From the NCBI GenBank assembly GCA_003153375.1, contig PLYM01000253.1, forward strand, positions 1-64,000: a stretch of 64,000 bases of DNA, in the 5' to 3' direction. The stretch comes from Planctomycetaceae bacterium (GTDB lineage Bacteria; Planctomycetota; Planctomycetia; Pirellulales; PALSA-1355). Both the position numbers and the translations under genes were made by a program. Positions 32,177 through 36,045 of the stretch are shown piece by piece (the stretch's first letter is position 1; every line of letters starts with the position of its first letter). Under the pieces are notes generated by a model. The model searched no databases. It was given only the letters and a program-made list of their open reading frames with translations, and was not told the origin of the DNA.

Positions 32177-32455
32177 TCAGGCTCCGGCCAACGGCTCTTT
32201 CTTTTCCGTGATCACCGGGCACTGCGGCGCCATTTCGGCGTTCAGCGCGGTGAAGTCCTTCCATTCCTCCGGAAGGTTGTCTTCATGGAAAATGGCTTCG
32301 ACCGGGCACTCGGGAACACAAGCTTCGCAATCGATGCACTCATCCGGGTGGATATAGAGAATCTTCTCACCCTCGTAGAAGCACTCCACCGGACACACGA
32401 CGACGCAGTCGGTGTATTTGCAACCGAAGCACGGCTCGGCGACAACATGAGTCAT
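32177..32455 (-). CDS. fdxA: Seven-iron ferredoxin (FdxA type)
   Basis: This 92-residue protein has two cluster motifs. [17 protein letters not shown] near the start gives the 3Fe-4S/4Fe-4S pattern of FdxA ferredoxins, and [12 protein letters not shown] gives the second 4Fe-4S set. Length and the [17 protein letters not shown] bridge match the 7Fe (Azotobacter FdI-like) family. It carries single electrons at low potential to an unknown partner. A strong AAAGGAGA ribosome site precedes the ATG. It converges with the VCBS repeat gene. Confidence 0.95.
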
Positions 32456-32642
32456 GGACAGATCTCTCCTTTGAGCGTCACATCCGACGCACCATAAAAA
32501 CTGGACTACGCAAACACCCCGAACACGGGCCGGTCATTGCTTTTTTTCGGCACGAGCCCGATTCGTCAACAACTTTGCCGTTGGCAAAGGTGTCGAACGG
32601 CCGGCGGGCCCGCCCTCAATTCAGCCTTTTGCCGCACAAGTG

Positions 32643-32669
32643 TCAAGTGCTTGAGACAAAAGCACTTGA
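32643..32669 (+). repeat. 10-bp perfect inverted repeat, possible operator
   Basis: TCAAGTGCTT and AAGCACTTGA pair perfectly across a seven-base loop. It lies roughly 100 bases upstream of the -35 box of the sigma factor gene and about 190 bases from the fdxA start. It has no T-tract, so it could be a regulator-binding palindrome rather than a terminator. Confidence 0.5.
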
Positions 32670-32764
32670 AGGCTTCGCGTGGGGTTTCGCGCGAATTTTA
32701 GTGCTGGCTATGCACGCTGTCAAGCGCGCGATTAGGCCGGCTTTAACGGCGAAAAAACTCCGGC

Positions 32765-32793
32765 TTGCTTCACTTGTCGATTCAACATAAAAT
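32765..32793 (+). promoter_or_regulatory. Candidate housekeeping-type promoter for the sigma factor gene
   Basis: TTGCTT (32765-32770) and TAAAAT (32788-32793) are separated by 17 bases, close to the sigma-70 consensus. Transcription would start near 32800, leaving a leader of roughly 110 bases before the GTG at 32910. Confidence 0.4.
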
Positions 32794-32909
32794 CATAGGT
32801 ATTAACGCTTTCCGAAGCCCATCTAGCGTTCCTACGCGGCCCATCACTGTCTGGCGGGATTGCGGACCGGCCAGCCGTTGCGCGCCGTTCGGACACAAAG
32901 GTATCGGTT

Positions 32910-33482
32910 GTGGCACTGTCTGAGATCGACCGCAATCTGCTGCAGCGTTGCTTGTCCCGGAAACCTCGGGCCTGGGAAGATTTTGTCGATCGTTTCATGG
33001 GGCTGGTCGTTCACGTCGTGAACCACTCGGCCCAAAGCCGCTCGCTGCGACTTTCCTCCGAAGACCGCGAAGATCTGGTCGCGGGGGTCTTCTTGACGAT
33101 CATCAAGGACGATTTGGGTGTGTTGCGCCAGTTCCGGGGCGAGAGCAGCCTGGCGACCTATCTGACGGTCATCGCACGGCGGGTCGTCGTGGCCGAAATG
33201 CTCAAGCAAAAGGCCCCTTCGCGCCTGGGCAACCACGAGCCGCAACCCGAGCTGGCCGTGGTCGGCGGCGAGTCCGAACAACGCGTCGACGACCGCGAGC
33301 AAGTCGAACGGCTGCTGGCGCAACTCGAGGGGGCCGAGGCCAAGGTCGTGCGGATGTATCATCTGGAAGGCAAAAGCTACCAGGAAATCAGCTCGGCCGT
33401 CGGCATGCCCGAGAACAGCGTCGGCCCGACACTCAGCCGCGCCCGGACCAAGATGCGACGCGGCGCGAACGAAAAGATTTGA
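32910..33482 (+). CDS. Sigma-70 family (ECF-like) RNA polymerase sigma factor
   Basis: This 190-residue protein has region 2 at about 20-95 (AWEDFVDRFMGLVVHVV and the RQFRGESSLATYLTVIARR promoter-melting/-10 helix) and region 4 at about 135-185 (EAKVVRMYHLEGKSYQEISSAVGMPENSV, a helix-turn-helix, given as a continuous run of the region). No region 1 or 3 is present, so it is an ECF-class factor. The GTG start follows AAAGG at eight bases. No anti-sigma gene lies next to it. Immediately downstream, 71 bases away on the same strand, lies a degenerate phosphohexomutase gene, which it may co-regulate. Confidence 0.9.
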   Translation: MALSEIDRNLLQRCLSRKPRAWEDFVDRFMGLVVHVVNHSAQSRSLRLSSEDREDLVAGVFLTIIKDDLGVLRQFRGESSLATYLTVIARRVVVAEMLKQKAPSRLGNHEPQPELAVVGGESEQRVDDREQVERLLAQLEGAEAKVVRMYHLEGKSYQEISSAVGMPENSVGPTLSRARTKMRRGANEKI

Positions 33483-33553
33483 CCGCGAGACTCATCTGAG
33501 TCGAGCCCGCGGCAGGACGTCGCCTCACAGTGGGCATGCGGGGGTGGGGGTTC

Positions 33554-34852
33554 ATGGACGAACGCACGATTGAGGCCGATTGCCAAAGTGCCGAATATCG
33601 CTGCCCGGGCGAGTCATACACGATCGATCGCGCGGTGCATCTCGGCCGCCTGGCCGCGTTCTATCCTGCTTGTCGCCAGTGTGTGCACCGCACCGACACG
33701 CACGCGTTGTCGCCGTTGCAGGCACGGCAGTGGGATGAAGTCGAGCGGCGCGTGCGGCGCGGTCCTTGTTTCACGAGCGAAGGACTGGAAGGCACCTCGC
33801 CCCACGACGTCGATGGTGCCATCGCCCGACGCGCTGGCGAGGCGCTGGGCAAGCTGCTCACGCGCGAGCGCATCAAGTTGCCTCCGCCCACGGTGCTGGT
33901 GGGCACGCCAGGCGACGCGGTGACGGCCGAACTAGTGGCCGCAGCATGCGCGGCACTGCAATGGGCGGGCTGCCACACGCTGGAAGTTGGCGCGGCGACG
34001 TCGGCCTCGCTGGCCGCCGCGACGCGACACTTGAATGGCGACGCCGCGATGTTGATCGGCAACGCCAGCGGCGAACCGCACGCGATCAGCTTGAAGTTTT
34101 GGGGCAGCGAGTCGCGTCCCTGGTCGTCGCCCGGCGGCTTGGATCGACTGCGCGAGCAGTACGTGGCGCCAAGCGATCGGCCCACGCGCCGGGCGGGTAC
34201 ATTGGCCCGCGCCGTGGCGGGCGAAATTTACCTGGCGCCGCTGGTGTCGCTGTTCCATGGCTTGCGTCCTTTGCGATTCGTACTCGACACGCGCTGTGAA
34301 GTCGTACACGACTATTTGCACTGCCTCAACGCGCAGGCGGCCTGCGAAATCCTGCGTCCGCGCGCTTCCCAGGGCGCCGGAATCGCGCGCGCCGAGACGC
34401 CATTCGCCGAGCGCCGCGCCGGGCTCATCAGCCGCGCGGTGCAGGTCGAGGCGGCCCACTTCGGCCTGTGGATCGACGGCGACGGCGAGCGCTGTCGGCT
34501 GTTCGACGAGCACGGTCGGGCAGTGGACGGGGAATCGCTGTTGCTGCTGTTGGGCGGCTATGTGTGCCGTCAACAGCCAGGGGCCGCGCTGGTGCTCGAG
34601 CGCGACGCCGGCGAGCGGCTGGTCGGCGAGTTGACCCGGCGCGGCGCCAACACGGTGCGCTGTGCCGCGAGCCGACAGGAAACGTGCGAGGCCATGCGTC
34701 GCGCCGGCGCGGTCTTTGGTGGCGGGCCGAGCGGACGATTCTGGTATGGCGAAGAAGCTGGAGCGCCCGACGCCTTAATGACCTTGAGCCTGCTGCTGAC
34801 CATCCTCAGCCAATCGGATCGGCCGCTGTCGGAAGTCCTCGACGCCGCCTGA
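33554..34852 (+). CDS. Degenerate phosphohexomutase-like protein with N-terminal Cys motif
   Basis: This 432-residue protein follows the alpha-D-phosphohexomutase plan, but its active site is altered. The N-terminal 50 residues hold a possible zinc site (CPGESYT then CRQCVH). Residues 100-180 resemble domain 1, but the catalytic serine loop (TASHNP in active enzymes) reads GNASGEPHAISLKFWG at about 169-184. DGDGER at 308-313 replaces the metal loop DGDGDR, and GGGPSGRFWYG at 389-399 resembles the sugar-binding GGExSGH loop without its Glu and His. It may therefore bind a sugar phosphate without converting it, perhaps as a regulator. The ATG at 33554 is preferred over a GTG eight codons upstream. 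Confidence 0.7.
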   Translation: MDERTIEADCQSAEYRCPGESYTIDRAVHLGRLAAFYPACRQCVHRTDTHALSPLQARQWDEVERRVRRGPCFTSEGLEGTSPHDVDGAIARRAGEALGKLLTRERIKLPPPTVLVGTPGDAVTAELVAAACAALQWAGCHTLEVGAATSASLAAATRHLNGDAAMLIGNASGEPHAISLKFWGSESRPWSSPGGLDRLREQYVAPSDRPTRRAGTLARAVAGEIYLAPLVSLFHGLRPLRFVLDTRCEVVHDYLHCLNAQAACEILRPRASQGAGIARAETPFAERRAGLISRAVQVEAAHFGLWIDGDGERCRLFDEHGRAVDGESLLLLLGGYVCRQQPGAALVLERDAGERLVGELTRRGANTVRCAASRQETCEAMRRAGAVFGGGPSGRFWYGEEAGAPDALMTLSLLLTILSQSDRPLSEVLDAA

Positions 34853-34929
34853 CCAGCGGTGTACAACGGAAACGAGCGGCCGCTCGCGCCGGCCGACCCG
34901 CCGTCACTCTCTCGCAGGACACTTCCCCT

Positions 34930-36045
34930 ATGGCTCATCCCTGGATCGCGGAGCGCATGGAGCACTTCGACAGCTCGGGCATTCGCAAGGTGTTCGATCT
35001 GGCGGCGGCCATGACCGATCCGATCAACCTCTCGATCGGCCAGCCCGACTTTGCCGTGCCCGCGGCGGTGCAAGAGGCTGCGGTGAAGGCGATTCACGAG
35101 AACAAGAACGGCTATTCGCCCACCCAGGGCATCGGCGCTCTGCGCGAGAAGCTACAAGCCCGGGTGCAAGCGCAGTACGCGCACACCATGCGCGACGTGT
35201 TTGTCACCAGCGGCACCAGCGGCGGGTTGGTGTTGGCCTTGTTGGCCCTGGTCAATCCGGGCGACGAGGTGATCGTCTTCGATCCGTACTTCGTGATGTA
35301 CAAATCGCTGGTTGGCCTGACCGGCGGCACGTGCGTGTTGGTCGACACGTATCCCGATTTTCGCATCGATCTCGATCGCGTGGCCGCCGCGATGACCAAG
35401 CGCACCAAGGCGATCCTGTTCAACAGCCCCGCCAACCCCACCGGCGCCACGGCCAGCGACGAGGAGGTACGCGGGCTGGCTCGACTGGCCGCCGAGCGCA
35501 ACATCGCGCTGATCAGCGACGAGATCTACAGCCTGTTCCATTACGACCGGCCCTTCGTCTCGCCCGCGGCTTACAACCCGCAGACGCTGGTGATCGACGG
35601 TTTTTCGAAAAGCTATGGCATGACCGGCTGGCGGCTGGGATTCGCGCACGGCCCGCGAGACATCATTCAGCAGATGATCAAGCTGCAACAATACACCTTC
35701 GTCTGCGCTCCACAGCCGATGCAATGGGCGGGCATCGCGGCCCTGGACGTCGACATGCAACCCCACATCGACGACTATCGTCGCAAGCGCGATTTGATTC
35801 TGGCCGGCTTATCCGAGGACTACGAGGTCACTCGCCCCGGCGGCGCGTTTTATGTTTTTCCCAAAGCGCCCTGGGGCACCGCCGACCAGTTCGTTCACAA
35901 AGCGATCGAGAACAGGTTGCTGATCATCCCCGGCAACATCTTCAGCCGGCAGGACACGCACTTTCGCATCTCCTATGCCGCCAGCGACGCCACGATCGGC
36001 CGCGGACTGGAAGTGCTGAGAAAGTTGGCCCGAGAGAGGCCGTAG
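34930..36045 (+). CDS. Class I/II PLP-dependent aminotransferase
   Basis: This 371-residue fold-type I aminotransferase has the substrate-binding NLSIGQPDF near the start, NKNGYSPTQGI, TSGTSGGLVLAL, FNSPANPTGAT, SDEIYSLF, and the PLP Lys227 in GFSKSYGMTGWRLGF. The C-terminal Arg is in HFRISYAAS. This matches the aspartate/aromatic or alanine aminotransferase subgroup 1-gamma. The amino donor and acceptor cannot be assigned. An AGGAC site precedes the ATG. It starts 77 bases after the degenerate phosphohexomutase gene on the same strand. Confidence 0.92.
   Translation: MAHPWIAERMEHFDSSGIRKVFDLAAAMTDPINLSIGQPDFAVPAAVQEAAVKAIHENKNGYSPTQGIGALREKLQARVQAQYAHTMRDVFVTSGTSGGLVLALLALVNPGDEVIVFDPYFVMYKSLVGLTGGTCVLVDTYPDFRIDLDRVAAAMTKRTKAILFNSPANPTGATASDEEVRGLARLAAERNIALISDEIYSLFHYDRPFVSPAAYNPQTLVIDGFSKSYGMTGWRLGFAHGPRDIIQQMIKLQQYTFVCAPQPMQWAGIAALDVDMQPHIDDYRRKRDLILAGLSEDYEVTRPGGAFYVFPKAPWGTADQFVHKAIENRLLIIPGNIFSRQDTHFRISYAASDATIGRGLEVLRKLARERP

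Follow-up and report, generated by a model that had tools for sequence, protein, structure and literature searches.

PGM5 (aciculin), a vertebrate paralogue of PGM1, is inactive and structural (PMC7761743), and in Bacillus subtilis a GlmM without domain 4 (GlmM F369) still binds and inhibits CdaA (PMC8573169). A literature search for phosphohexomutase pseudoenzymes or for the CHCC module in planctomycetes returned nothing specific. The locus described here lies within the window, the whole 64,000-nucleotide stretch of planctomycete DNA that was analysed, and the following features were located in it:

32177 to 32455, minus strand: ferredoxin, the more widely conserved, divergent neighbour of the sigma factor gene (PF00037/PF11953)
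32910 to 33482, plus strand: ECF-type sigma factor, a neighbour outside the conserved unit (TIGR02937)
33554 to 34852, plus strand: dead three-domain phosphohexomutase with an N-terminal CHCC module, 432 amino acids (profiles, alignment and model)
33602 to 33682, plus strand: core of the metal-binding-like module, C17-x11-H29-x10-C40-x2-C43 (ligands invariant in 48/48 members)
33761 to 34849, plus strand: alpha-phosphohexomutase domains I-III, residues 70-432, domain IV absent (structure match with Z 41.3; PF00408 in 0/48)
34058 to 34078, plus strand: position of the phosphoserine loop, GNASGEP replacing TASHNP (phmmer and family alignment)
34475 to 34492, plus strand: position of the Mg loop, DGDGER replacing DGDxDR (third Asp in 0/48)
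34718 to 34738, plus strand: position of the sugar-binding loop, GGGPSGR replacing GEMSxH/GELSGH (Glu in 4/48, His in 0/48)
34930 to 36045, plus strand: ordinary class I (PLP) aminotransferase (PF00155, 210 bits)

The three open reading frames of the first-pass annotation (sigma factor, degenerate phosphohexomutase and aminotransferase) were all recovered at its positions, and PF00155 identified the third as an aminotransferase. The reading favoured for the middle gene, at a probability of roughly 0.6, is that a dead mutase has kept its fold and a zinc-like module as a binding protein and has been inherited vertically, and that the sigma factor is unrelated to it.

The profile search against phosphohexomutases that the first-pass annotation had proposed placed the product of 33554-34852 above the Pfam cut-off for PGM_PMM_III, with domains I and II below theirs. 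The match to TIGR03990 had an E-value of 1.7e-28 but scored short of that model's cut-off, and PDB relatives were found at E 1e-21. The AlphaFold2 model, for which the family alignment was the input, had a pLDDT of 92.4 and a pTM of 0.86 (blocks of residues 11-50 at 82-92), and a structure search with modelled residues 70-432 matched domains I-III of PMM/PGM with Z 41.3 and rmsd 2.7 over 349 residues. On this predicted fold, the protein is a member of the alpha-phosphohexomutase superfamily over domains I-III. The phosphohexomutase plan had been described as kept; this holds for domains I-III by profile and by fold, but domain IV, with its phosphate-binding loop, is gone, which had been missed. 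It was absent in 48/48 aligned members, the window copy included, and the Pfam domain models gave 0/48 for domain IV (PF00408) and 45/48 for domain I. The window genome encodes three other superfamily members in which domain IV is matched, a pair on contig C12 and one on C118 that is truncated where the contig stops; these genes therefore probably provide the ordinary mutase activity.

Intact orthologues of the mutase-like gene were found in 11 further genomes of the order, with 28-57% identity, and its presence in the order was patchy (12/57 genomes). A scan of genome contigs with a single protein as query gave no matches; with the alignment as query it gave three true orthologues (L183-L185), the remainder being ordinary mutases. 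A class-wide profile search returned many more members, chiefly in another group (family f22). The family alignment comprised 48 members drawn from one class, in which they represent two groups (orders), and all counts cover the sampled genomes. No interrupting stops were present in the 48 members, and the mutase-like gene is a conserved family and not a chance open reading frame. In the tree, the dead family formed a single clade with an SH-aLRT of 100 that divided into the two sampled groups, a pattern suggesting that the dead proteins arose once and were passed on vertically.

The active-site loops were eroded throughout this family. A Ser stood at the phosphoserine column in 8/48 members, and the loss of the catalytic serine loop claimed earlier therefore stood for most of the relatives but not cleanly for the window copy, whose GNASGEP retains a Ser that phmmer aligned to the Ser of TASHNP and that MAFFT placed one column off. 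Whatever the alignment of the window copy, the Ser is not conserved across the dead family. At the Mg loop, the first and second Asp were each retained in 33/48 members and the third in 0/48; this last loss is a feature that the earlier reading had overlooked. The sugar loop had indeed lost its Glu and His, as had been noted (GGGPSGR in the window; 4/48 and 0/48 members, respectively), and family-specific Trp (40/48) and Arg (32/48) residues stood beside it. In two members of family f17 (L245 and L249) the sugar-loop stretch was deleted, and in these the aminotransferase gene was not adjacent. The cleft motifs differed strongly among the 48 members. The set that marks an active alpha-phosphohexomutase (the TASHNP loop, DGDxDR, GEMSxH and domain IV) was lacking, with the alignment of the window's own Ser being ambiguous. 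At the level of sequence, the 33554-34852 product is thus confirmed as a catalytically dead superfamily member, and the earlier proposal of a pseudo-enzyme was borne out by the eroded loops and the missing domain IV across all 48 members.

Downstream, the 34930-36045 product carried the PF00155 domain with the PLP-lysine motif SKSYGMTGWRLG, and its nearest solved relatives were aspartate aminotransferases. The aminotransferase gene directly followed the mutase-like gene in 14 of the 16 loci read in the order, and did so in 3/32 loci of family f22, where the usual neighbour was holA (DNA polymerase III delta), placed divergently in 16 of the 32 loci read. In two loci both holA and the aminotransferase gene flanked the mutase-like gene, and an order of holA, mutase-like gene and aminotransferase gene is therefore probably ancestral. 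A functional link to holA was considered and set aside, its place beside the mutase-like gene in these 16 loci being read as a legacy of gene order. The aminotransferase was present in 55/57 genomes of the order, most of them without the mutase-like gene, which makes it independent of that gene.

These observations bear on the first alternative, in which the protein is a new enzyme whose different activity resides in the module or in the remodelled cleft, perhaps in cooperation with the aminotransferase. The pairing with the aminotransferase gene is conserved in the order and recurs in three loci of the other group, the first two Asp of the Mg loop persist in most members, as do the Trp and Arg beside the sugar loop, and four invariant Cys/His residues, combined with erosion of the old site, might signal a new catalytic site, which counts against the binding-protein account. 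However, the cleft motifs are strongly variable, the aminotransferase occurs mostly in genomes without the mutase-like gene, and holA, not the aminotransferase, is the usual neighbour in the other group. A new enzyme is accordingly considered improbable, though it survives better than the other alternatives.

The Cys-rich N-terminus noted in the first-pass annotation proved to be the most conserved part of the dead family. Within the first 50 residues, which hold the module, C17, P18, H29, R32, C40 and C43 were invariant in 48/48 members. The four ligands (C17, H/C29, C40 and C43) were present in all 51 aligned module copies, the three Cys being invariant; as for position 29, every dead fusion (35/35) had His there and every other module copy (16/16) had Cys. 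A Cys/His exchange of this kind, confined to one ligand of an otherwise unchanged set of four, is what a zinc site tolerates, and it points to zinc as the metal that the module probably binds. The module alone matched no Pfam or NCBIfam family, PDB sequences gave no convincing match to it, and Foldseek with a 54-residue module model (pLDDT 77) returned no match, whether to a zinc ribbon, a treble clef or any other fold. Very small domains are easily missed by Foldseek, and the blank result is no evidence of a new fold. In the model, the module folds into a small unit whose two pairs of ligands are separated by a short helix.

A second alternative is that the module has no structural zinc and instead carries an iron-sulfur cluster or responds to redox state. 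Four Cys or CHCC ligands are compatible with an iron-sulfur cluster too. On the other hand, both the exchange of Cys and His at one ligand between subfamilies and a predicted fold this small, in which a short helix separates the ligand pairs, are more typical of structural zinc, and a cluster is rated somewhat below even the new enzyme.

The module was not confined to the dead family. A phylum-wide profile search gave matches starting at the module in families with frames of more than 500 amino acids, in which the module (CPGESYTISxSVCxGRQxxxYPKCxxC) was fused to mutases with all catalytic motifs (TASHNP, DGDADR, GGELSGH and RKSNTEP) and domain IV intact. In one of these loci (L286), Pfam phosphohexomutase domains I-IV were all matched, with the module at the N-terminus. 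Hydrazine synthase was found in all but one (G586) of the nine genomes tested with such fusions, so that eight of the nine are anammox bacteria; their module-bearing phosphomannomutases are at loci L281-L288, L290 and L291. The G586 protein (L289:2470-4002), from outside the window's class, carried the module with eroded catalytic loops, and its chain is long enough for domain IV, yet Pfam recognised no domain IV there. It may represent either an intermediate state or an independent second loss. In the mutase-core tree the dead family was not placed beside the intact module-bearing mutases and its branch was long; one clade of all module bearers was not rejected (p-AU 0.46).

In a search with the module only, three genomes were found to encode it on its own, in a small gene that directly precedes the gene of a mutase. 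These free-standing CPGE/C-x2-C module genes, each upstream of a phosphomannomutase gene, were located as follows:

L326, 2165-2326: free-standing module gene
L327, 1085-1246: free-standing module gene
L328, 806-967: free-standing module gene; the neighbouring mutase is cut by the contig end and its start alone is present

The module was also found in other small proteins and in a PEGA-domain protein; in the latter (L332:3030-8000) it stands at the N-terminus of a long protein with an open frame of more than 1600 codons.

Taken together, the best account remains a non-catalytic, metal-stabilised binding protein, regulator or scaffold, which is the most likely function on the sequences compared, because the ligands are kept in 48/48 members while the catalytic residues erode, and because the module is coupled to intact mutases elsewhere. 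Under this account, the module would first have been an accessory of an active mutase; in an ancestor shared by these planctomycetes the fused enzyme would then have shed domain IV and its catalytic activity, and the fused protein would have been retained as a non-catalytic binding protein, scaffold or regulator. Zinc would hold the module folded, and the module and the three-domain body would dock on a partner, for which the candidates are an active mutase, the aminotransferase or, if GlmM is a guide, the c-di-AMP cyclase. The cyclase link was followed through the diadenylate cyclase (DAC) domain, which was present in 55/57 relatives whether or not they had the mutase-like gene; this distribution was uninformative, and the GlmM parallel is an analogy. 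Contig C69 of the window's genome, which carries the mutase-like gene, also encodes a diadenylate cyclase domain beyond the window (75711-76088), some 41 kb further downstream.

A broader and more tentative proposal is that the module is an undescribed metal-binding accessory subunit of planctomycete phosphohexomutases, provided either as a small protein of its own or by fusion, that tunes them to metal or redox, and that in the window's class the fused dead form has turned into a pure sensor or scaffold that still needs the module; we judge this possible and less probable than the binding-protein account itself. The module beside an active mutase, the module fused to an active mutase, and the module fused to a dead mutase without domain IV, which is widespread in its class, make up an evolutionary series, which makes it testable what phosphohexomutases do beyond catalysis, and a small module with no Pfam or NCBIfam match is carried by many planctomycete genes.

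The upstream gene was an ECF-like sigma factor, as had been stated, with 74.6 bits for TIGR02937 against a cut-off of 42.9. The first-pass annotation had seen the pseudo-enzyme and the sigma factor as a candidate regulatory system, in which a sugar-phosphate sensor would control the adjacent sigma factor. In the family to which the window belongs, the two genes lie side by side on one strand, and within the window the sigma gene had no recognisable anti-sigma gene next to it. However, the sigma factor was matched in 53/57 genomes of the order, and although both genes are widespread they adjoin each other in that one family only; a ferredoxin gene, opposite the sigma gene in 13/20 loci, is its commoner neighbour. 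Sugar-phosphate sensing by the mutase-like protein is possible in itself, but the loss of domain IV and of the GEMSxH loop, and with them of the phosphate- and sugar-binding loops, speaks against it. Gene order, whose conservation had been named as a point to check, was thus conserved for the mutase-like gene and the aminotransferase gene within the order and not for the sigma factor beyond the window's family. A partnership with the sigma factor was rejected on this gene order: in the one family where the two genes adjoin, the sigma factor is there by chance, its control by the mutase-like protein is unlikely, and the sensor reading as a whole is very improbable. The divergent sigma factor and ferredoxin pair (32177-33482) is itself a possible iron-sulfur-linked regulator.

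That the gene is a decaying relic without function, as its fast divergence within the order (28-57% identity) and its patchy presence (12/57 genomes) could indicate, is likewise highly doubtful: across two groups, all 48 members have kept an intact frame and the same four ligands, and the fold is predicted with confidence.

Compared with known systems, the protein preferred here as a dead mutase kept for binding is closest in its body to PMM/PGM enzymes (PDB 1wqa, 9du5 and 1k35), with which it shares domains I-III (Z about 40 over about 345 residues), but it has no domain IV, has not kept the catalytic loops and has the extra CHCC module. The anammox module-bearing phosphomannomutases share with the dead family the N-terminal module and the domains after it; they differ in having intact active-site motifs and domain IV, and Cys in place of His29. 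PGM5, too, belongs to the superfamily, lacks activity and has been retained for a role other than catalysis (PMC7761743); however, its fold is complete and it binds glucose-1-phosphate, while the window protein is without domain IV and the sugar loop, and the two are not close relatives. GlmM F369 has a three-domain phosphohexomutase body of which the mutase-like protein may be a natural counterpart, but GlmM is an active enzyme, and no cyclase link of the mutase-like protein was found among the 57 relatives.
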